Assembly (NCBI GenBank): GCA_944383265.1
Contig: CALWOX010000012.1
Location: 1 to 44,414, forward strand
Reading direction: 5' to 3'
Origin: an uncultured Lachnospiraceae bacterium
Lineage (GTDB): Bacteria; Bacillota; Clostridia; Lachnospirales; Lachnospiraceae
Length of the DNA: 44,414 nt
Positions 2,588 to 43,858 of the stretch are shown here, one piece after another. The notes below the pieces were generated by a model. That model was not told the DNA's origin. It was given only the letters and a program-made list of their open reading frames with translations, and searched no databases. Position numbers and translations under genes: made by a program. Each line of letters opens with the position of its first letter. Positions within the stretch are counted from its first letter, which is position 1.

Positions 2588-2983
2588 ATGTGGGATATGG
2601 ACAAAACAGTACTTGTGACCAACAACCCCGATGTCAGGGACAAGTACTCGGACAAGATGACAGTGGTTTTCGTTGAGGGCTATGAGAATGTCCTTATTAA
2701 GGTCAGGGATATGGTGTATGACAAGTACATTTTGCTTACTCATCCTCAGGCTTCGAGCCTTAAGCCCAATCAGACGCCTTATCGTTCTGTGATGGTTTAC
2801 CCCAAGGATGAGAAGACAAAGGATAACACCAATGACATTTTGCTTATAGAGAAGTGCATTGAAGTTTACAGGCAGTGGCAGGACATCGCCCCTTCGCCGG
2901 CAGGATATGCGGAAGGAGTGGACAAGGATTTCAGAACTATAGATCTTTCGGTTATTGATAATATCATTCCTCGTCTTAATTAA
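2588..2983 (+). CDS. grdX: GrdX family protein
   Basis: This 131-residue protein matches the small GrdX family found at the head of glycine, sarcosine and betaine reductase clusters. Typical features are the N-terminal TNNPDVRDKY, the middle LIKVRDMVYDKYILLTHP and the following LKPNQTPYRSV. The biochemical role of GrdX is not established, so none is asserted here. The ATG at 2588 has AGAAGG about 11 bases upstream; a second in-frame ATG at 2597 is possible. The stop codon directly abuts the tetR gene, so the two form one transcript. Its presence independently supports assigning the genes after 4109 to the reductase system. Confidence 0.85.
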   Translation: MWDMDKTVLVTNNPDVRDKYSDKMTVVFVEGYENVLIKVRDMVYDKYILLTHPQASSLKPNQTPYRSVMVYPKDEKTKDNTNDILLIEKCIEVYRQWQDIAPSPAGYAEGVDKDFRTIDLSVIDNIIPRLN

Positions 2984-2986
2984 TTG

Positions 2987-3670
2987 ATGAAAAAAGACAA
3001 ATTTTTTAAGGAGCTCTCAAGGAAAGACTACATTATAAAAGCAACGGAAATAGTAAAAAACGAGGGACAGAAGGCGCTCACCATACGCAGGATAGCCAAT
3101 GAGCTTAACTGCACGAGCGCCAATCTTTATCGCTATTTTGAAAACATAGACGAGCTTTTCTTTTATTCTCAGATTCAGTATCTGGATTATTACATTGACA
3201 TTCTTACCAAGGCTGAGAAGAACTGGAAGGACGTGTGGGATATGCACATCGGAATATGGGAGTGCTATTCGAGAACGGCTTTTACCTATCCTCAGGCCTT
3301 CAACACGGTATTCTTCTCCGAAATGAGCAAGAACCTTGTGGGAGCTCTGAACGAGTATTATGCTATATTCCCGGAGCATATCGACCTTGTGGCGAAGTAC
3401 CTTACGGACATGCTTAGGACCTCGGACTTTTTCGAGAGAGACTACCAGATGTGCAAGAAATGTGCTGAAGCGGGGGTCATAGATCCGTATAATGCCATAG
3501 TTATGAATCGTATGGTATGCATGCTTTATAAGGGCTATCTCAAGGGGATACTTGATAACGGAATAGAGGAGAGCGAGATAGAAGACAGAGTCGCCACATT
3601 TATGAGAGATGTCCACATGGTCATAAAAAATCTGGCGAAGGATACCTTGGGTCATAAAGAGCTGATGTAA
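2987..3670 (+). CDS. TetR/AcrR family transcriptional regulator
   Basis: This 227-residue protein has an N-terminal helix-turn-helix of TetR type at about residues 10-55 (ALTIRRIANELNCTSANLYRYFENIDELF), followed by an all-helical ligand domain. The ATG at 2987 is preferred over the TTG at 2984. Translation is probably coupled to grdX, whose stop ends at 2983. No good ribosome binding site is visible, which agrees with coupling. The gene lies between grdX and grdE, and palindromic sites sit in the grdE promoter region (3929-3982), so it is the obvious candidate regulator of grdEB. A reductase substrate as inducer is plausible but is inference. Confidence 0.85.
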   Translation: MKKDKFFKELSRKDYIIKATEIVKNEGQKALTIRRIANELNCTSANLYRYFENIDELFFYSQIQYLDYYIDILTKAEKNWKDVWDMHIGIWECYSRTAFTYPQAFNTVFFSEMSKNLVGALNEYYAIFPEHIDLVAKYLTDMLRTSDFFERDYQMCKKCAEAGVIDPYNAIVMNRMVCMLYKGYLKGILDNGIEESEIEDRVATFMRDVHMVIKNLAKDTLGHKELM

Positions 3671-3703
3671 AGACAATATAAGAAATGATTTTGGTATTAT
3701 TTT

Positions 3704-3753
3704 ATCCTGAAGTTTACAAACATGACAGATTTGTAAACTTCAGGATTTTTTTA
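3704..3753 (+). terminator. Terminator after tetR (long AT-rich hairpin)
   Basis: A perfect 17-bp inverted repeat (3704-3720 with 3730-3746, 9-base loop) is followed by a T-run. It separates grdX-tetR from grdEB, so grdE needs its own promoter. The stem is AT-rich and could also act as a protein-binding palindrome. Confidence 0.7.
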
Positions 3754-3924
3754 TTTCAGCGAAATTTTAGGAAGCTTAGAAAAATAATTCATTATCATGC
3801 AATAGCTCTCAGCAAATTTAACAAAACAGACTATATTTCAGTGCGTTTTAAGGGTATAAATTGGTATATTTTTCACAAAAAGAGTAAAAGTTACAAAATA
3901 CATCGAATTTAAGCAAAATAATAG

Positions 3925-3953
3925 TTGCAAAATAATCGCGATTATTTTATCAT
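3925..3953 (+). promoter_or_regulatory. Candidate promoter with 20-bp perfect palindromic operator in its spacer (O1)
   Basis: The sequence AAAATAATCGCGATTATTTT (3929-3948) is its own reverse complement. It fills the gap between a -35-like TTGCAA (3925-3930) and a -10-like TATCAT (3948-3953), which are 17 bp apart. Operators placed like this are typical for TetR-family repression. The likely ligand is the TetR protein encoded at 2987-3670. Confidence 0.6.
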
Positions 3954-3962
3954 TAATACATA

Positions 3963-3982
3963 AAGTAATCACGATTATTTAA
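3963..3982 (+). promoter_or_regulatory. Second operator copy (O2)
   Basis: GTAATCACGATTATTT matches the core of the perfect palindrome at 14 of 16 positions. The two cores start exactly 33 bp apart (3931 and 3964), about three helical turns, as expected for cooperative binding on one DNA face. Confidence 0.5.
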
Positions 3983-4024
3983 TAAATTGCTTATAGAAAA
4001 TATACAAGTATTTTCTTAATTTTG

Positions 4025-4053
4025 TTGCGATTACAGAATTTGGGCCTTAATAT
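4025..4053 (+). promoter_or_regulatory. Alternative grdE promoter
   Basis: TTGCGA (4025-4030), a 17-bp spacer and TAATAT (4048-4053) lie 55 bases before grdE. The -35 overlaps TGCGATTA, a possible third operator half-site. Confidence 0.4.
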
Positions 4054-4108
4054 GTGGTTTACAAAAACTTCAAAGGCTTTTTATAAATTCAAGTAAGGAG
4101 GGGAAAAA

Positions 4109-5395
4109 ATGAAACTTGAGTTAGGTAAAATTAAAATCAATGACATCAAGTTCGCCGACAAAACTGAGGTCAAGGACCACGTTCTTTATGTCAATAAAGA
4201 AGAGGTGGAGAAGCTTGTCCTTGAGGATGACAAGCTCATCGGCTGCAAGCTTGATATTGCAAGACCCGGAGATTCTACTCGTATTACTCCCGTTAAGGAT
4301 GTAATCGAGCCCAGAGTAAAGGTATCAGGAGGAGAGATCTTCCCCGGAGTTATCGGAAAGGTAACACCGCCCGTCGGAACAGGACGTACACACGCTCTTG
4401 ACGGAATGACGGTCGTTACCGTAGGACGTATCGTTGGCTTCCAGGAGGGAGTTATCGACATGTCAGGTGTAGCTGCAGATTACTGCCCGTTCTCAAAGAC
4501 AGTTAACCTCTGCGTAGTTATCGAGCCCGCTGAGGGACTTGAGACTCACGTATACGAGAAGGCAGGACGTATGGCAGGCCTTAAGGTTGCCGCATATCTC
4601 GGAGAGGCAGGAAGAAATGTTGAGCCCGACACACTTGAGACCTATGAGACAAAGCCCATATTTGAGCAGGCTGCAGAGTATCCTGATCTTCCCAAGGTTG
4701 GATACATCCACATGCTTCAGTCTCAGGGACTTCTTCATGACACATATTATTACGGCGTAGACGCTAAGAACTTTGTTCCCACATTCATGTATCCTACAGA
4801 GATCATGGACGGAGCTATCGTTTCAGGAAACTGCGTTGCTCCTTGTGACAAGGTTACAACATATCATCACTTCCACAACCCCGTTATCGAGGACTGCTAC
4901 AAGCATCATGGAAAGGATATCAACTTCATGGGTGTTATCCTTACAAACGAGAATGTATTCCTTGCTGATAAGGAGAGACATTCAGACATGGTTGCAAAGC
5001 TTGCCGAGTACATGGGACTTGACGGAGTGCTCATCACAGAGGAGGGATACGGAAATCCTGATACAGACCTCATGATGAACTGTAAGAAGGTAGAGCAGAA
5101 GGGAATCAAGGTAGTTCTTATCACAGACGAGTTCCCCGGAAAGGACGGAAAGTCACAGTCACTTGCTGATACCTGTGAGGAGGCAACAGCTCTTGCATCT
5201 TGCGGACAGGGTAACATGACTCTTCAGTTCCCCGCTATGGACAAGGTAATCGGAACTCAGGATTATATCGAGTCCCAGATCGGCGGATGGGCAGGCTGTG
5301 TAAATCCTGACGGCTCATTCGAGGCTGAGATCCAGATAATCATAGCTTCAACTATCGCTAACGGCTTCAACAAGCTCGCTGCAAGAGGCTATTAA
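4109..5395 (+). CDS. grdE: Glycine/sarcosine/betaine reductase component B proprotein (alpha and beta subunits)
   Basis: This 428-residue protein is the proprotein of the substrate-binding component B of the Stickland-type reductase. In this family the chain is cut at an Asn-Cys bond and the new N-terminal cysteine becomes a pyruvoyl group that binds the amine substrate as a Schiff base. The motif SGNCVAPC is present with the cleavage cysteine at residue 242, and IGGWAGC lies near the C-terminus. A strong AAGGAGGGG lies 7 bases before the ATG. grdB follows after 23 bases. Homologues named GrdG and GrdI serve sarcosine and betaine, and the sequence alone does not decide which substrate this one uses. 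Confidence 0.92.
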   Translation: MKLELGKIKINDIKFADKTEVKDHVLYVNKEEVEKLVLEDDKLIGCKLDIARPGDSTRITPVKDVIEPRVKVSGGEIFPGVIGKVTPPVGTGRTHALDGMTVVTVGRIVGFQEGVIDMSGVAADYCPFSKTVNLCVVIEPAEGLETHVYEKAGRMAGLKVAAYLGEAGRNVEPDTLETYETKPIFEQAAEYPDLPKVGYIHMLQSQGLLHDTYYYGVDAKNFVPTFMYPTEIMDGAIVSGNCVAPCDKVTTYHHFHNPVIEDCYKHHGKDINFMGVILTNENVFLADKERHSDMVAKLAEYMGLDGVLITEEGYGNPDTDLMMNCKKVEQKGIKVVLITDEFPGKDGKSQSLADTCEEATALASCGQGNMTLQFPAMDKVIGTQDYIESQIGGWAGCVNPDGSFEAEIQIIIASTIANGFNKLAARGY

Positions 5396-5418
5396 TTTTC
5401 GGAAAGGGAGATAAGACT

Positions 5419-6738
5419 ATGGCAAAGTATAAAATTGTTCATTATTTAAACCAGTTCTTCGCAGGAATCGGCGGCGAGGAAATGGCTGATTACCAGCCCG
5501 AGGTTAGAGAGGGAGTTGTAGGACCCGGCGCAGCTTTGAAGGCAGCTTTAGGCGATGATTATGATATCGTTGCTACAGTTATCTGCGGTGACAACTACTT
5601 CGGTGAGAACCTTGACAAGGCTACAGATACAATTATCGAGATGGTTAAGAAGTATGAGCCCGACGTATTCGTAGCAGGACCCGCATTCAATGCAGGACGT
5701 TACGGAGTTGCCTGCGGTACTATCTGTAAGGCAGTAGAGGACAGACTCGGCATACCCGTTCTTACAGCTGCATACGAGGAGAACCCCGGAACAGATATGT
5801 TCAAGAAGGATGTTATCATCGTTAAGGCAGGAAATTCCTCAGCTGATATGAAGAACGTTATCCCCGTAATGGCTAAGCTCATCAAGAAGATGGCTACAGG
5901 CGAGGAGATCTTAGGACCCGCTATCGAGGGATATCACGAGAGAGGAATCCGTGTGAACTACTTCGCTGAGAAGAGAGGTTCAGAGCGTGGACTTGAGATG
6001 CTTATCAAGAAGATGAAGGGCGAGCCCTTTGAGACAGATCTTCCTATGCCCAAGTTCGACAGAGTAGAGCCCGCTGCTCCTATCAAGGATATCAAGCACG
6101 CTACTATCGCTGTTGTTACATCAGGTGGTATCGTTCCTCAGGGTAACCCCGACCACATTGAGTCTTCAAACGCTACAAAGTTCGGCGAGTACTCAATAGC
6201 AGGTATGGATCACATGGATCCTAAGGACTTCATGACTGTACACGGCGGATATGACAGACAGTTCGTCCTTGCAAATCCCAACCTCGTAGTGCCTCTTGAT
6301 GTTCTTAGAGAGCTCGAGAAGGCAGGAGAGTTCGGAAAGCTTTATGATTCATTCTTCACCACAACAGGTACAGGAACCGCTACAGGCTCCGCTGCCAAGT
6401 TCGGTGATGCTATCGGAAAGAAATTAGTAGAGGATCACGTAGACGGCGTAATTCTCGTATCTACCTGAGGAACCTGTACACGTTGCGGTGCAACGATGGT
6501 TAAGGGTATCGAGAAGTATGGCATTCCTGTAGTTCATATGGCTACTGTAGTTCCCATTTCACTTACTATAGGTGCTAACCGTATTATCCCCGGAGTAGGT
6601 ATCCCCTATCCCCTCGGTGATCCTACACAGGGCGAGGCTGACTCCAAGAAGATCAGAATGAGAATGGTTAAGAGAGCGCTCAAGGCTCTTCAGACACCTG
6701 TAGACGGCCAGACAGTATTCGAGAAGGACGACTTCTAA
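5419..6738 (+). CDS. grdB: Glycine/sarcosine/betaine reductase component B, selenoprotein gamma subunit (UGA = Sec350)
   Basis: The full protein is 439 residues, with an in-frame TGA at 6466-6468 read as selenocysteine 350. Reading on gives the family active-site context STUGTCTRCGATM, and the frame then stays open to the TAA at 6738. The selenocysteine of component B takes part in cleaving the C-N bond of the pyruvoyl-bound amine, passing a carboxymethyl group to selenoprotein A (family knowledge). A hairpin suitable as SECIS lies 12 bases after the UGA. Plain ORF calling splits this gene in two. The start has GGGAG upstream, and grdE ends 23 bases before. Which amine is used is not decided here; GrdF and GrdH are the sarcosine and betaine homologues. 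Confidence 0.93.
6466..6495 (+). promoter_or_regulatory. Selenocysteine UGA codon and bacterial SECIS-like hairpin
   Basis: After the UGA at 6466-6468, CGTTGC (6481-6486) pairs with GCAACG (6490-6495) around a GGT loop (6487-6489). A short stem with a GGU apical loop about 12 bases after UGA is the layout recognised by SelB. Confidence 0.8.
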
Positions 6739-6769
6739 CTCAGTCGTATTGAATGCCGTATACATATAG

Positions 6770-6806
6770 GGTGCGGTACACTTGTGCCGTGTACCGCACC
6801 TTTTTG
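6770..6806 (+). terminator. Strong terminator after grdB
   Basis: GGTGCGGTACAC (6770-6781) pairs perfectly with GTGTACCGCACC (6789-6800) and is followed by TTTTT. The transporter gene lies beyond it, so it is expressed by read-through or from its own promoter. Confidence 0.9.
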
Positions 6807-6863
6807 TAAATGAAATTGTTGATTTTTTAACAATAAATTAATCCTAATGCAGGAGGAAAAAAT

Positions 6864-8012
6864 ATGGGTATTGACAACAATAAACTGAACCTTAAGCGTG
6901 TCATTATTCTTGCCGGAGCAGTTATAGCGTTCACTATCGGTTCAGGCTTTGCGACAGGTCAGGAGATAATCCAGTACTTTACCGCCTACGGCGCACAGGG
7001 CATACTTGCCGTTTTACTGTTTTTGGTAATATTCCTTTATTATAATATAAACTTTGCAAACGCCGGAGCTTCCGAGCGATTTGAAAAGGGTAATGATGTT
7101 TACAAGTATTTCTGCGGAAAATACATCGGAACTTTCTTTGATTACTATTCAACTATTTTCTGCTACATGTCATTCTGGGTAATGGTCGGAGGTTCGGCTT
7201 CAACTCTTAACCAGCAGTATGGACTTCCTATGTGGGCAGGCGGACTTATCCTTGCAGCATTGGCCATAATCACTGTAGTAGGAGGACTTAATTCACTCGT
7301 TGACAAGATCGGTGCTGTCGGACCCGCTATAGTTATACTTTGTATCGCTATAGGTCTCATCACAGTAGTGAGAGACGGCGGAAACATCGGAGCAGGCCTT
7401 GAGGTTATAGAGACAGGCGCTTATGCAGGCGCTGCAGAGGGTGAGACTATCATGAACGCCGGTGCAAACTGGCTCGTTTCAGGAATAAGCTATGCGGGAT
7501 TCGTTCTTCTCTGGTTCGCAAGCTTCACAGCAGCTCTCGGATCACAGAACAGCAAGAAGGATCTCTATCATGGAATCATCTGGGGCGCTGTTGCTGTATG
7601 CGTGGCTATAGTTCTTATTTCCTTCGCTCAGATTGCAAACATCAATACTCCTTCATCTGACGGAACAATGTATGTTTGGAACGCTGATATCCCTAACCTT
7701 ATACTTGCCGAGAAGATCTGGAAGCCTTTCTCCGCTATATTTGCTATAGTAGTATTCGGTGGTATCTATACCACAGCGGTTCCTCTTCTTTACAACCCTG
7801 CTGCAAGATTTGCAAAAGAGGGTACAAGTCAGTTCAAGATCCTTACAATAGTACTTGGTGTCGTAGGTCTCGTAGTAGGACTTTTCGTTCCCTTCAGAAG
7901 CCTTGTTAACGTAATCTACGTTCTCAATGGTTACCTTGGCGCAGTTCTTATCCTCTTCATGGTTTATAAGAACATAAAGGATCTCATGAATAAAGGTAAA
8001 AAGACAGCATAA
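6864..8012 (+). CDS. YkvI-like integral membrane transporter, probably for the reductase substrate
   Basis: This 382-residue protein has about ten hydrophobic membrane segments. It begins with an AFTIGSGFATGQEIIQYF motif, typical of the uncharacterised YkvI membrane-protein family (COG3949), which is related in fold to APC/LeuT-type symporters. A strong AGGAGG precedes the ATG. It follows grdEB and is closed by its own terminator at 8057. Location suggests that it imports the amine reduced by the GrdEB component, or a precursor; this is inference, since the substrates of YkvI proteins are poorly known. It is not a BCCT-type betaine carrier, which is the more familiar partner of betaine reductase. 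Confidence 0.75.
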   Translation: MGIDNNKLNLKRVIILAGAVIAFTIGSGFATGQEIIQYFTAYGAQGILAVLLFLVIFLYYNINFANAGASERFEKGNDVYKYFCGKYIGTFFDYYSTIFCYMSFWVMVGGSASTLNQQYGLPMWAGGLILAALAIITVVGGLNSLVDKIGAVGPAIVILCIAIGLITVVRDGGNIGAGLEVIETGAYAGAAEGETIMNAGANWLVSGISYAGFVLLWFASFTAALGSQNSKKDLYHGIIWGAVAVCVAIVLISFAQIANINTPSSDGTMYVWNADIPNLILAEKIWKPFSAIFAIVVFGGIYTTAVPLLYNPAARFAKEGTSQFKILTIVLGVVGLVVGLFVPFRSLVNVIYVLNGYLGAVLILFMVYKNIKDLMNKGKKTA

Positions 8013-40252: not shown

Positions 40253-41236
40253 ATGGCAGTTTTCAGAGTGGAACGCAACACGGGATATACCGTAATGAGT
40301 AACCACCACTTACGCAACAAGGAGCTGACCTTGAAAGCAAAGGGCTTGTTGTCGCAAATGCTCTCACTTCCCGAAGATTGGGACTATACCCTTGCGGGGC
40401 TGTCCCATATCAACCGGGAGAAAATCGACGCTATCCGGGAAGCGGTGCGTGAACTGGAACGCGCCGGGTATATCGTCCGTTCAAGGGAACGCGACGCAAA
40501 AGGACGCCTGCGGGGTGCCGACTATGTGATTTACGAGCAGCCACAGCTACCGCCTAAACCGGATTTACCTACGTTGGAAAATCCAACATTGGAAAATCCA
40601 ACGCAGGAAAACCCTACGTTGGAAAAACCTACGCAGGAAAATCCAATGCAATTAAATAAAGAAGTACAAAGAACTAATCTATCAAAAAAAGAAAAATCAA
40701 ATACTGATACACAAAATACCCATTCCATTCCTATCCTTTCCCCTGCCCCCTCTCCCTTAGAGGGACAAGCGGCTGCGCCGCCGGAACGGAAACGAAAGGA
40801 ACCGGACGACGCATACCGGGTATATGAGGAAATCGTAAAAGACAACATCTGCTATGACATTCTCAAACAAAATATGCCCTACGACCATGACCGGATAGAT
40901 GAAATCGTTGACCTTATCCTTGAAACGGTCTGCACAAGGCGCAGGACAATCCGTATCGCCGGGGACGACTACCCGGCAGAGCTTGTAAAGTCAAAGTTTA
41001 TGAAACTGGAAAGTGAACATATCCGGTTCGTCCTTGACTGTATGCGGGAGAACACCACGAAAATCCGCAATATCAAGCAGTACCTACGGGCGGCACTGTT
41101 CAACGCGCCGTCCACTATCGGCAATTACTACACTTCCCTTGTCGCCCACGACATGGCAAGCGGCGCACTGGCTCCGCGAAAGCCCCAGTTTGGCGACCCG
41201 GACTATTATTCATGCAATGAGGGCGAAAGCCTGTAA
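40253..41236 (+). CDS. DUF6017 / replication-initiator-like protein of the conjugative element
   Basis: This 327-residue protein has an N-terminal winged helix like RepA/primase-type initiators (MAVFRVERNTGYTVMSNHHLRNKELTLKAKGLLSQMLSLP in pattern, then LSHINREKIDAIREAVRELERAGYI). A central low-complexity part has five copies of a TLENP-like pentapeptide (residues 107-131), and the C-terminal DUF6017 domain (residues ~190-300) follows. It commonly heads transfer regions of Firmicute ICEs and may act in element replication or control. AAAGGAG lies 10 bases before the ATG. Confidence 0.85.
   Translation: MAVFRVERNTGYTVMSNHHLRNKELTLKAKGLLSQMLSLPEDWDYTLAGLSHINREKIDAIREAVRELERAGYIVRSRERDAKGRLRGADYVIYEQPQLPPKPDLPTLENPTLENPTQENPTLEKPTQENPMQLNKEVQRTNLSKKEKSNTDTQNTHSIPILSPAPSPLEGQAAAPPERKRKEPDDAYRVYEEIVKDNICYDILKQNMPYDHDRIDEIVDLILETVCTRRRTIRIAGDDYPAELVKSKFMKLESEHIRFVLDCMRENTTKIRNIKQYLRAALFNAPSTIGNYYTSLVAHDMASGALAPRKPQFGDPDYYSCNEGESL
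40571..40645 (+). repeat. Five 15-bp tandem repeats inside the DUF6017 gene
   Basis: Five units of the form ACRYWGGAAAAYCCW, at 40571, 40586, 40601, 40616 and 40631, encode T-L/Q-E-N/K-P. Being a multiple of three, changes in copy number keep the frame. Confidence 0.85.
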
Positions 41237-41258
41237 AACAACACAAGGAGGATTTTTT

Positions 41259-41477
41259 ATGGCACAGAGAACCGGAGCATTGGTATTTGACGAGCTGACT
41301 GACCGTTACGACATTCGCTTTGACCTTTCCGACTACTACGGGGGCTTGCATTGTGGCGACTGTCTGGAAGTATTCGTAAGGGGAAAATGGAAGCCGACCC
41401 GTATGGAGTACGGACAGAACTGGTATCTGGTAGGCGTACGCGCCGAGGACTTGAACGGGCTTAGAGTGCGGATTTAA
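41259..41477 (+). CDS. DUF5348 family protein
   Basis: This 72-residue protein (GALVFDELTDRYDIRFDLSDYYGGLHCGDCLEVF pattern; W-K-P-T-R-M-E and WYLVG) matches the small DUF5348 family found in this position of conjugative elements. Its function is unknown. ACAAGGAGG lies 8 bases before the ATG, and the gene lies 22 bases after the DUF6017 gene, so it is in the same operon. Confidence 0.8.
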   Translation: MAQRTGALVFDELTDRYDIRFDLSDYYGGLHCGDCLEVFVRGKWKPTRMEYGQNWYLVGVRAEDLNGLRVRI

Positions 41478-41552
41478 GGAAAGCGGCAGACACAGGGCAA
41501 CCGGGAAAGGGCTGCCCTTTCTTTCTGCCCGGAAGCGAAAGGAGGACGATAA

Positions 41553-42035
41553 TTGCAGGAGGAAGTCAACGAAAAAGTGATTGCCCTGTCAATCAAGACC
41601 GGAAAACTGTCTGCGGAAGTGCTGCAAAAATCCATGAAATTCTTTCTCTCACAGGTAAAGAAGCAGGTAAACAAGCGGCAAATGCCCCACGGCAGGCAGA
41701 CCCTAAAGCAGCTTATGAAGCAGAACGCAGGCGTTTCCAATATCGAAATCACGAAGGACAATATCAAAGCCTTTGAAAGTACCGCGAAGAAATACGGGAT
41801 TGACTTTGCGCTGAAAAAGGACGCGACGGAAAGCCCGCCCCGGTACCTTGTTTTCTTTAAGGCGCGGGACGCTGACGCACTGACCGCAGCCTTTAAGGAG
41901 TTTTCCGCAAAGAAGCTCTCACAGGAACAGAAGCCCTCTATCCGAAAGGCGTTAGCCGTTTTTCGGGATAAGGCGAAGCAGCTTAATGCGAACCGAGAGA
42001 AAGTCAAGAACAAGGAAAGGGGGATTGACCGTTGA
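41553..42035 (+). CDS. PcfB family (DUF3801) conjugal transfer protein
   Basis: This 160-residue protein has the PcfB/DUF3801 layout: IALSIKTGKLSAEVLQKSMKFFL near the N-terminus, PHGRQTLKQLMKQNAG, then YGIDFALKKD and a Lys-rich C-terminus. In pCF10 of Enterococcus, PcfB is an accessory to the coupling protein PcfC. Here too it lies immediately before the VirD4-like gene. The TTG start is chosen because AAAGGAGGA lies 8 bases upstream and no ATG follows early. The stop overlaps the next TTG start by 4 bases. Confidence 0.85.
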   Translation: MQEEVNEKVIALSIKTGKLSAEVLQKSMKFFLSQVKKQVNKRQMPHGRQTLKQLMKQNAGVSNIEITKDNIKAFESTAKKYGIDFALKKDATESPPRYLVFFKARDADALTAAFKEFSAKKLSQEQKPSIRKALAVFRDKAKQLNANREKVKNKERGIDR

Positions 42036-43858
42036 ACAACATAGACTTGAAAAAGCTGATTATCCCGAATATCCCCTATCTGCTCTTTGTCTGGCTCTTT
42101 GACAAGGCAGCGCAGGCATTTAGGCTGTCGCCGGGGGCTGACCTGTCGGAAAAGCTGCTTTCCCTTGGGACGGGATTTTCCGCAGCCTTTGGGGACGCCG
42201 CGCCGAGCTTACACCCTATGGACTTGCTTATCGGTATAGCGGGGGCGGTGCTTATCCGGCTGATTGTCTATTTCAAAGGCAAGAACGCGAAGAAGTACCG
42301 GAAAGGCATGGAATACGGCTCTGCCCGTTGGGGGACAGCCGAGGACATAAAGCCTTATATCGACCCGGTATTCCAGAACAACATCATTCTGACCCAGACG
42401 GAACGGCTTACCATGAACAGCCGCCCGAAGCAGCCAAAGTACGCAAGGAATAAAAACGTCCTTGTAATCGGTGGCTCCGGTTCCGGTAAGACAAGGTTTT
42501 TCGTAAAGCCGAACCTTATGCAATGCTCCGCAGGCGGCTCCAAAAACGGGGAAAATGCTATCCCCGTGAGCTATATCGTGACTGACCCGAAAGGGACTGT
42601 CCTTGTAGAGTGCGGGAAGCTCTTGCAGCGCAGCGGATACCGGATAAAGGTACTGAATACGATAAACTTCAAGAAAAGTATGCACTATAACCCGTTCGCC
42701 TATATCCGCAACGAAAAGGATATTCTGAAACTGGTAAATACCATAATCGCCAATACCAAAGGCGACGGGGAAAAATCCGGGGAGGATTTCTGGGTAAAGT
42801 CCGAACGGCTCTTTTACTGCGCCCTTATCGGCTATATCTGGTATGAAGCCCCGGAGGACGAGAAGAACTTTACGACGCTGCTTGAAATGATAAATGCGTC
42901 GGAAGCCCGCGAGGACGACCCGGAATTTCAGTCCCCGGTTGACCTCATGTTTGAACGTCTGGAAGAAAAAGACCCGGAACATTTTGCCGTCCGGCAGTAC
43001 AAGAAATTCCTGTTAAGCGCGGGCAAGACACGTTCCTCAATCCTCATAAGCTGCGGGGCGCGGCTTGCCCCCTTTGACATACGGGAACTGCGGGAACTTC
43101 TGGAAACCGACGAAATGGAGCTTGACACCCTGGGCGACCGCAAGACGGCACTGTTTGTTATCATCAGCGACACGGACGACACCTTTAACTTTATCGTATC
43201 TATCCTTTACACGCAGCTTTTCAACCTGTTGTGTGATAAAGCCGACGACGTGTACGGCGGGCGGCTGCCCGTCCATGTGCGCTGCTTACTGGACGAGTTT
43301 GCCAATATCGGACAGATACCGAAGTTTGAGAAGTTAATCGCTACCATAAGGAGTAGGGAAATTTCCGCTTGTATCATCTTGCAGAGCCAGTCGCAGCTAA
43401 AGGCAATCTATAAGGACAACGCCGATACCATAGTCGGCAACTGCGACACCACCCTTTTCCTTGGCGGCAAGGAGAAAACCACGCTGAAAGAAATGTCGGA
43501 GCTTTTGGGGAAAGAAACCATTGACAGCTTCAACACTTCCGAAACCAGAGGACGGGAGCAGTCCCACGGGCTGAACTACCAGAAGTTAGGCAAGGAGCTT
43601 ATGACACAGGACGAAATCGCCGTCATGGACGGCGGGAAATGTATCTTGCAGCTACGGGGTGTGCGCCCGTTCTTTTCGGATAAGTACGACATTACAAAGC
43701 ACCCAAATTATAAATACCTTGCCGACTACGACAAGAAAAATACCTTTGATGTGGAACGGTACATGAAACGCCGCCCCGCAATCGTGAAGCCGGACGAGCC
43801 ATTCGACTGTTACGAAATCAACGAAGCAGATTTGCAGGAGGACACAGGAAATGAATAG
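42032..43858 (+). CDS. VirD4/TraG-like type IV coupling protein
   Basis: This 608-residue ATPase delivers the relaxosome to the type IV secretion channel. It has two N-terminal membrane segments, Walker A in VLVIGGSGSGKTRFFVKPN (about residues 143-161), Walker B in CLLDEFANIG (about 416-425) and the family motif ILQSQSQLKAIY. The TTG start overlaps the PcfB stop (TTGA), with AAGGGGG upstream. No sign of inactivation was seen. Confidence 0.95.
   Translation: MNNIDLKKLIIPNIPYLLFVWLFDKAAQAFRLSPGADLSEKLLSLGTGFSAAFGDAAPSLHPMDLLIGIAGAVLIRLIVYFKGKNAKKYRKGMEYGSARWGTAEDIKPYIDPVFQNNIILTQTERLTMNSRPKQPKYARNKNVLVIGGSGSGKTRFFVKPNLMQCSAGGSKNGENAIPVSYIVTDPKGTVLVECGKLLQRSGYRIKVLNTINFKKSMHYNPFAYIRNEKDILKLVNTIIANTKGDGEKSGEDFWVKSERLFYCALIGYIWYEAPEDEKNFTTLLEMINASEAREDDPEFQSPVDLMFERLEEKDPEHFAVRQYKKFLLSAGKTRSSILISCGARLAPFDIRELRELLETDEMELDTLGDRKTALFVIISDTDDTFNFIVSILYTQLFNLLCDKADDVYGGRLPVHVRCLLDEFANIGQIPKFEKLIATIRSREISACIILQSQSQLKAIYKDNADTIVGNCDTTLFLGGKEKTTLKEMSELLGKETIDSFNTSETRGREQSHGLNYQKLGKELMTQDEIAVMDGGKCILQLRGVRPFFSDKYDITKHPNYKYLADYDKKNTFDVERYMKRRPAIVKPDEPFDCYEINEADLQEDTGNE

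Follow-up and report, generated by a model that had tools for sequence, protein, structure and literature searches.

The window analysed here, a stretch of 44,414 nucleotides from an uncultured Lachnospiraceae bacterium, is the entire contig C12 of a genome that is 97.5% complete. Between positions 2588 and 8012 it carries five genes, all on the + strand, which encode GrdX, a TetR-type regulator, the alpha and beta subunits of a component B, and a membrane protein, as a first-pass annotation of the sequence had listed them. The contig starts 2.6 kb 5' of grdX and, as also stated in that annotation, is devoid of grdA, grdC and grdD. The genes and the features that accompany them are as follows.

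2588..2983, + strand: grdX, conserved grd-cluster protein, function unassigned (NF038093, 127 bits, cut-off 40)
2984..3670, + strand: gene of a TetR-type regulator, predicted to repress grdGF locally (PF00440, 27.9 bits, cut-off 24)
3704..3746, + strand: terminator-like hairpin 3' of tetR, 17-bp perfect stem and T run (outside the consensus scan, which has a loop limit of 8)
3925..3953, + strand: promoter-like TTGCAA-17-TATCAT, spacer holding operator 1 (9/12 consensus matches)
3931..3946, no strand: predicted operator 1, perfect palindrome AATAATCGCGATTATT, the only exact copy in the genome
3964..3979, no strand: predicted operator 2, imperfect copy AGTAATCACGATTATT, 33 bp past operator 1
4109..5395, + strand: grdG, sarcosine reductase component B alpha proprotein (NF040793, tree, Cys242)
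5419..6738, + strand: grdF, sarcosine reductase component B beta selenoprotein (NF040794; one in-frame TGA read through)
6469..6506, + strand: SECIS_4 selenocysteine insertion element (RF01990, 59.5 bits, gathering 38)
6770..6800, + strand: terminator-like hairpin in the grdF/transporter gap, 12-bp stem and T run
6864..8012, + strand: transporter of predicted LeuT-type fold, candidate sarcosine importer (neighbourhood, fold model)

The TetR_N domain of the regulator exceeds the gathering score of 24 and places the protein in the TetR family. GrdX gave a confident AlphaFold2 model (pLDDT 94.6), despite which no PDB structure was matched in a Foldseek search at E<=0.001. The selenocysteine codon of grdF is the in-frame TGA at 6466-6468 and, as a strong SECIS_4 element follows directly 3' of it, the selenoprotein reading is not due to chance; a tRNA-Sec is encoded in the same genome (C2:270109-270201, 61.3 bits, gathering 47). 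The reading as a broken gene was ruled out, since all frames are open save for this TGA and the SECIS is strong. Because perfect hairpins with T runs follow both tetR and grdF, the genes probably form two or three transcription units, and of the single unit described previously the clustering of the genes stands, whereas a common transcript is doubtful. The hairpin between grdF and the transporter gene is not general, occurring in 2 of 31 loci.

When the subunits were scored with curated NCBI models, the alpha subunit reached 869.3 bits with NF040793 (GrdG, cut-off 780) and the beta subunit 832.4 bits with NF040794 (GrdF, cut-off 800), so that both pass. The other two alpha proteins of the genome, encoded on contigs C2 and C7, scored 619 and 349 bits with the GrdG model, both below 780. 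With the glycine-specific model TIGR01917 (cut-off 602.2) the window beta subunit obtained 596.7 bits, a narrow miss of 5.5 bits, and the beta subunit from C2 passed with 677.7 bits; with the betaine-specific GrdH model the window protein stayed at 569.1 bits, below the cut-off of 775. A phylogeny, proposed earlier as a check, was calculated for the alpha subunit by a quick method without bootstrap from 77 of 122 extracted rows, kept after thinning (93% identity, 380-residue minimum) and including long rows from L022, L023, the second L082 copy and one GrdI row of L089. It places the window GrdG inside a clade of 51 rows (SH-aLRT 100) that also holds both plasmid-borne GrdGs of Peptoclostridium acidaminophilum, apart from the 17 GrdE rows and thus not among the glycine reductases. 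An identity as GrdE/GrdB, the label given in the first-pass annotation, was rejected because the glycine model was missed, if narrowly, and the position in the tree is elsewhere; by the curated cut-offs for both subunits and the tree the pair is GrdG/GrdF, and the enzyme itself is of a known kind, component B of sarcosine reductase.

The window GrdG is 72-76% identical to four reference GrdGs, 57% to the GrdE and 38% to the GrdI of its own genome. Among 33 columns fixed in the four references and absent from all GrdE/GrdI rows used, it keeps 23, and at 4 of 24 reverse columns it has the GrdE residue (L022, L023 and the second L082 copy being excluded from these counts), so a drift in specificity is possible. 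A cysteine is present at position 242, which we take from GrdE of C. sticklandii to be the pyruvoyl-forming residue and which is conserved in 70 of the 77 tree rows; Cys242 would be the expected pyruvoyl residue of GrdG, with cleavage predicted from the sequence. A sequence search with GrdG against the PDB gave no match. In favor of sarcosine, genes resembling N-carbamoylsarcosine amidohydrolase stand no more than about 3.3 kb from grdGF in three loci (L083, L106, L109) of the 80 related ones, all outside the subclade of the window, and the two of their products that were checked had 1nba as best PDB match (E 1e-63 and 1e-59).

The sole grdA of the genome and one fused grdC-grdD, which provides the only above-cut-off matches to both component C subunits, are located on contig C2, and hence the shared components A and C are both present. 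They adjoin a complete glycine-type grdE/grdB, and a betaine-type module of grdI/grdH and a BCCT carrier is found on C7, which brings the component-B alpha genes to three (glycine, betaine and sarcosine types). The possibility that the core lies just beyond the window was rejected, as the window spans the complete contig and the core maps to C2. One A, one C and three B alpha genes are thus the outcome of the genome search that had been suggested, and they support the earlier idea of a separate component B for a non-glycine substrate served by an A/C core encoded elsewhere. An ordinary split cluster, named there as the contrary outcome, was not what emerged, as GrdG falls outside the GrdE rows and a different contig carries the core. 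Sarcosine, a specificity that already has a name, is the most likely substrate, which had previously been left unassigned.

Upstream of grdG, the palindromic site TTATCGCGATTA was detected in 25 of 29 TetR-linked relatives versus 2 of 50 loci without an adjacent TetR gene, a count that allows one mismatch at most, for which shuffled sequences give at most 1, and whose core was picked from some of the same loci. The count covers 79 of 80 named loci, one with less than 100 bases upstream having been omitted, and excludes the window and L028-L031; in the survey of 34 TetR loci four genomes apparently occur twice, L028-L031 repeating L036, L043, L035 and L034, respectively. In both operator-bearing exceptions a TetR gene lies about 3 kb away, and a contig end falls close to grdG in some of the 50 loci, so that a TetR gene may have escaped notice in these. 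The core of operator 1 is conserved in the relatives. The promoter-like sequence around it is weak when taken alone, because a consensus scan of the whole region returned 15 sites, not above chance (10.9, sd 3.2, in shuffles); across loci, 19 of 43 operator sites lie within a promoter-like -35/-10 spacer versus 2.6 expected by position. The betaine module on C7 has a regulator whose TetR part is 52% identical to the window TetR over 221 aligned positions and is fused to a DUF3841 domain, and that module carries similar operator sequences. Within a 19-kb stretch around the core on C2 the operator core was not found at up to 2 mismatches, so the A/C core seems to be outside the control of the window TetR. 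The assignment of the operator to TetR, predicted from these sequence patterns, is new and testable.

The transporter gene is single copy in the genome, and in 36 of 80 related loci, from at least 4 phyla, a relative lies 3.5 kb or less from grdGF; in the other 44, of which 8 are cut by a contig end, none was seen within that distance. In L046 all three B modules lie in a row and the transporter gene is directly 3' of grdG-grdF. The same locus is carried by the cultured Faecalimonas umbilicata DSM 103426 (L039). A close form of the transporter is present in exactly those 5 of 25 genomes of the genus that have a GrdG above the cut-off and in 4 of 299 genomes of the family; these 4 belong to the 10 family genomes whose GrdG exceeds the cut-off, and the other 6 of the 10 are without it; 16 of the 25 and 246 of the 299 genomes are at least 90% complete with at most 5% contamination. 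Other carriers near grdGF are SLC6-type in 15 of 80 loci, where they take its place, named by clustering and similarity search with an NCBIfam run for L037 alone and with just 32-35% similarity for L067 and L104, and BCCT in 2 of 80. Scans with Pfam and NCBIfam yielded no model that names the transporter and no YkvI-named match, YkvI-like being the label used in the first-pass annotation, and a sequence search against the PDB gave no match; 3 of 30 relatives weakly match the Pfam sodium:alanine symporter family (best E 3e-5). The transporter model (pLDDT 87.9) gave 103 Foldseek matches at E<=0.001, and the best 50 of these include CHT1, CodB, AgcS and BetP, with a TM of about 0.6 and an rmsd mostly of 6-10 A. 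These four are classed as LeuT-type, and a LeuT-type (APC-type) fold is predicted for the transporter from the model. Titles and abstract starts on YkvI contained nothing about sarcosine, COG3949 had no literature match, and in the literature accessible without subscription no such carrier or TetR operator was tied to sarcosine reductase among the matches listed. The candidate role as sarcosine importer is a new and testable prediction.

Clostridioides difficile and P. acidaminophilum provide known precedents for a sarcosine module that stands apart. Plasmid EAL2_808p of the latter has two grdG-grdF copies, whose GrdGs are 72-73% identical to that of the window, whose grdF is likewise annotated as sarcosine type, and which, like the window contig, have no full core within the stretches of 31 kb and 18 kb. 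Copy 2 has grdX in front and, behind it, a protein from the family of the window transporter (45% identity, E 2e-112) with no annotation beyond hypothetical. On the plasmid a sigma-54 regulator and a binding-domain protein stand in place of the TetR; copy 1 differs by a BCCT carrier, an M24 peptidase and a nearby grdA. In C. difficile, the sarcosine reductase genes CD1740-CD1741 with SarRS likewise form a separate, locally regulated operon, which differs from the window by its sigma-54 promoter and two-component system (PMC7438776). No relative of the window transporter was found in the C. difficile stretches L107 and L111. The betaine module on C7 resembles the window in its gene order, with tetR first, then component B, then a carrier, and in its operators, and differs by GrdI/GrdH, the BCCT carrier and the DUF3841 fusion. 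The fluoroacetate reductase farACEB of Cloacibacillus porcorum also joins a component-B pair dedicated to one substrate with a carrier of its own (PMC10838667), but the window GrdG reaches 184 bits with the FarE model, far from its cut-off of 675.

The explanation that we favor, with a probability of roughly 0.77, is a sarcosine-specific component B kept as a separate regulated module with a TetR operator and a LeuT-type importer. Sarcosine would be bound by GrdG, expected to bear a pyruvoyl group at Cys242, together with the selenoprotein GrdF, and a carboxymethyl group would be handed on to selenoprotein A, of which the genome has one; acetyl phosphate would then come from the one fused component C, methylamine would be released and thioredoxin would supply the electrons. 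This order of reactions, from B over A to C with these products and this electron donor, is that of the known enzyme family. TetR may occupy the TTATCGCGAT-type palindromes of the promoter spacer before grdG, thereby blocking transcription, and may let go when sarcosine or a sarcosine-derived signal is present, while the LeuT-type transporter would bring in sarcosine. The analysis shows the identities of the genes, the Sec signal, the one shared core, the conservation of operator and neighbourhood and the predicted fold; substrate, ligand and direction of transport are inferred from these.

Reduction of another N-substituted glycine, such as dimethylglycine or N-ethylglycine, by a Lachnospiraceae branch of GrdG with TetR and transporter shifted accordingly seems improbable. 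It would fit the 10 of 33 reference-specific columns that differ, regulator and transporter types unlike those of the P. acidaminophilum grdG-BCCT copy, and sarcosine-source genes in just three loci of other subclades; however, both subunits exceed the curated sarcosine cut-offs, GrdG is much closer to the references than to its own GrdE or GrdI, and the second P. acidaminophilum grdGF copy is followed by the same transporter family. That the pair is an ordinary glycine component B, cut off from its operon when the DNA was rearranged or the contig broke, is very improbable and already contradicted: a complete glycine-type grdE/grdB stands beside the core on C2, the sarcosine cut-offs and the tree position speak otherwise, and the module is kept as such in many species, even though GrdG and GrdE are related (57% identity), TIGR01917 was missed by so little, the contig starts shortly before grdX, and about 19-26 kb separate the two loci in G011, G017 and G019. 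If the reductase is as proposed, the transporter could have a different cargo (methylamine for export, another amino acid or a counter-ion), which we consider unlikely, though less so than a different reductase substrate. The protein has no Pfam or NCBIfam name, its fold is common to carriers of amino acids, betaine, choline, cytosine and metals, and in more than half of the loci it was not seen near grdGF; on the other side stand the co-occurrence of its close form with GrdG in genus and family genomes and the alternative linked carriers, SLC6-type and BCCT, classes known for import of amino acids or betaine.

Whereas the enzyme chemistry is known, the TetR operator, the betaine TetR paralogue with similar sites and the transporter assignment are new. 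We give about even odds to a broader combined reading, in which an orphan LeuT-type family would serve anaerobes specifically for sarcosine import, having spread together with grdGF across at least 4 phyla, and paralogous TetRs with near-identical TTATCGCGAT operators would separately guard sarcosine and betaine B modules plugged into one core; cross-regulation between the two modules is possible. An uncharacterised carrier family thereby gains a specific substrate prediction, sarcosine, and the repressor a predicted DNA site that can be tested directly. For many Lachnospiraceae, including Faecalimonas and Catonella, which are cultured gut and oral members of the family, a route from sarcosine to acetate and methylamine is predicted.

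All five genes placed by the first-pass annotation at 2588-8012 (grdX, tetR, two component-B genes and a transporter gene) were confirmed there, in an assembly (2.30 Mb, 12 contigs, 97.5% complete, 0 contamination) in which the window equals contig C12. The naming of the component-B pair as grdE and grdB was not upheld, as both subunits exceed the cut-offs of the NCBI sarcosine models (GrdG, 869 bits against 780; GrdF, 832 against 800) and the alpha row lies outside the GrdE rows. GrdF narrowly missed the glycine model TIGR01917 (596.7 bits, 602.2 needed), and the genome's other alpha subunits, on contigs C2 and C7, scored 619 and 349 bits with the GrdG model. The frame of the beta subunit GrdF reads through one TGA, and a SECIS_4 element (59.5 bits) lies directly 3' of this codon. 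In an alpha-subunit tree of 77 rows, built with a quick method, a glycine placement was not obtained: the window row belongs to a 51-row GrdG clade (SH-aLRT 100) that also includes both plasmid GrdGs of P. acidaminophilum and one C. difficile row, and the GrdE (17 rows, 94) and GrdI (6 rows, 100) groups stand apart from it. Window GrdG shares 72-73% identity with both P. acidaminophilum GrdGs, and the values against its own genome's GrdE and GrdI are 57% and 38%; several of the closest named loci come from uncultured Lachnospiraceae. As only 23 of 33 reference-specific columns are retained and 4 of 24 GrdE-specific residues are present, sarcosine is the probable rather than the proven substrate.

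Isochorismatase-like hydrolase genes lie near grdGF in 3 of 80 related loci (L083, L106 and L109, all outside the window's own GrdG subclade). The two hydrolases compared with the PDB, from L083 and L106, best matched N-carbamoylsarcosine amidohydrolase (1nba; E 1e-63 and 1e-59), and in L106 a dihydropyrimidinase-type gene separates the hydrolase gene from grdG. These neighbours fit the creatinine route described for Tissierella creatinophila (PMC5364220) and lend independent support to the sarcosine identity of grdGF. Divergent component-B pairs were seen at L032 (G020:C18), with 52-59% identity to the types of this genome, and at L033 (G021:C32), with 33-48%; the alpha rows concerned, L023 and L022, form long, isolated branches in the tree.

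The proposal that the A/C core is encoded elsewhere was borne out, with grdA and component C on C2 and neither accompanying the window module. The genome has one grdA (C2:281706-282146), one over-cut-off match per component C subunit (the beta model has one extra hit on C11, at 23 bits and so far under its cut-off of 450) and three genes for component-B alpha subunits. All three B modules must therefore depend on a single A/C core, barring genes in the 2-3% of the genome that the assembly lacks. The C2 row reads AgcS-type carrier, grdE, grdB, trxB, trxA, grdA and an 849-aa protein spanning both component C subunits, with tRNA-Sec about 9 kb from the core. The C7 group comprises a TetR-DUF3841 protein, grdI, grdH (752.7 bits, just below the cut-off of 775) and a BCCT carrier.

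L005:6984-9533 (contig C2), minus strand, GrdC-GrdD fusion in a single 849-aa open frame (NF040746 at 5-481, NF040747 at 507-848)
L006:10012-11286 (contig C7), minus strand, betaine-module regulator, TetR fused to a DUF3841 domain (146.9 bits)

At the place matching the fusion, the open frames of L061 (Clostridium asparagiforme, 794 aa) and L066 (C. citroniae, 710 aa) continue past the end of the retrieved sequence; in L046 and L078 a stop separates grdC and grdD.

The transporter is single-copy in the genome and drew no naming match from Pfam or NCBIfam models. Its predicted structure (pLDDT 87.9) matches LeuT-type structures, among them CHT1, CodB, AgcS and BetP (TM ~0.6). A relative lies within 3.5 kb of grdGF in 36 of 80 named loci (29 Bacillota, 4 Spirochaetota, 1 Fusobacteriota, 1 Synergistota, 1 unplaced); the remaining 44 have an SLC6-type gene (15), BCCT (2) or neither (19), or are cut off (8). 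Within the genus, a close form (at least 82% identity) occurs in exactly 5 of 25 genomes, the ones with GrdG above cut-off, and two further genomes have a 36-38% relative. In the family sample, a close form (>600 bits) occurs in 4 of 299 genomes, which are not independent since two belong to the window's genus; GrdG exceeds its cut-off in 10 family genomes, which include all four, and the other 6 have no close form. In L046, a Leptotrichiaceae assembly with all three B modules in a row, the transporter gene is directly 3' of grdG-grdF, and in copy 2 of P. acidaminophilum the gene after grdX-grdG-grdF, annotated as 'hypothetical', encodes a protein that shares 45% identity with the window transporter. 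One family genome, G056, has a second close copy (G056:C5:60829-61959, 74% identity) on a different contig from its GrdG.

Two putative operator sites and a hairpin lie between tetR and grdG.

3704-3746, hairpin with a T run
3931-3946, palindromic site 1
3964-3979, palindromic site 2

The exact 16-mer of site 1 occurs nowhere else in the genome and, beyond the second site, one more place matches at 2 mismatches. In a count over 79 of the 80 named related loci, the core TTATCGCGATTA, with up to 1 mismatch allowed, is present in 25 of the 29 that have a neighbouring TetR gene versus 2 of the 50 that do not, a count that is partly circular because the core was derived from some of the counted loci; both exceptions (L048 and L050) have the TetR gene about 3 kb downstream. 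Dinucleotide shuffles gave the core in at most 1, and the real evidence for the predicted operator is the contrast with the 50 other loci and with the shuffles. At a promoter threshold of 9 of 12 matches, 19 of 43 sites (30 loci including the window) fall inside a -35/-10 spacer versus 2.6 expected at random positions, and the first window site sits within a TTGCAA-17-TATCAT spacer. This is a repressor-site layout, although scanning the entire region for consensus promoters gave no excess over chance. In this genome, where the pair was examined, the betaine TetR is 52% identical to the window TetR over 221 positions and its intergenic region contains TTATCGCGATAC and TTATCTTGATAA, suggesting paralogous regulators with similar putative sites.

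The reductase chemistry, sarcosine to acetyl phosphate and methylamine, is established for this enzyme family, and the locus-specific steps are those we infer: the transporter would bring sarcosine into the cell, the TetR repressor would respond and free grdG, GrdGF would bind sarcosine and pass a carboxymethyl group on to selenoprotein A of the common core, component C would produce acetyl phosphate, and methylamine would exit. It is already known that component B modules can each have their own substrate: a C. difficile sarcosine reductase (CD1740-1741), which has SarRS and a sigma-54 promoter, is described in PMC7438776, and a substrate-specific component B module, that of fluoroacetate reductase, in PMC10838667. 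In the literature searched, as far as its accessible text goes, neither a TetR operator nor such a transporter assignment was found for a sarcosine module.

GrdX (2588-2983) gave a confident model (pLDDT 94.6) for which solved structural relatives were not found at E<=0.001, and its predicted fold is possibly an unrecorded one. Loci L028, L029 and L030 (G011, G017 and G019) have two tandem grdX genes ahead of tetR, about 36-39% and 63-66% identical to window grdX; in their named counterparts (L036, L043 and L035) an SLC6-type relative (29-30%) lies just upstream of the tandem grdX. At the right contig end, the genes at 40253-43858, for a DUF6017 protein and a coupling protein of TraG/TraD type, seem to mark the border of a conjugative element. 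At the other end, the product of 1-2211 is large and its frame is open at the contig edge; its C-terminal part carries W/Y/G-rich repeats that resemble cell-wall (choline) binding repeats.
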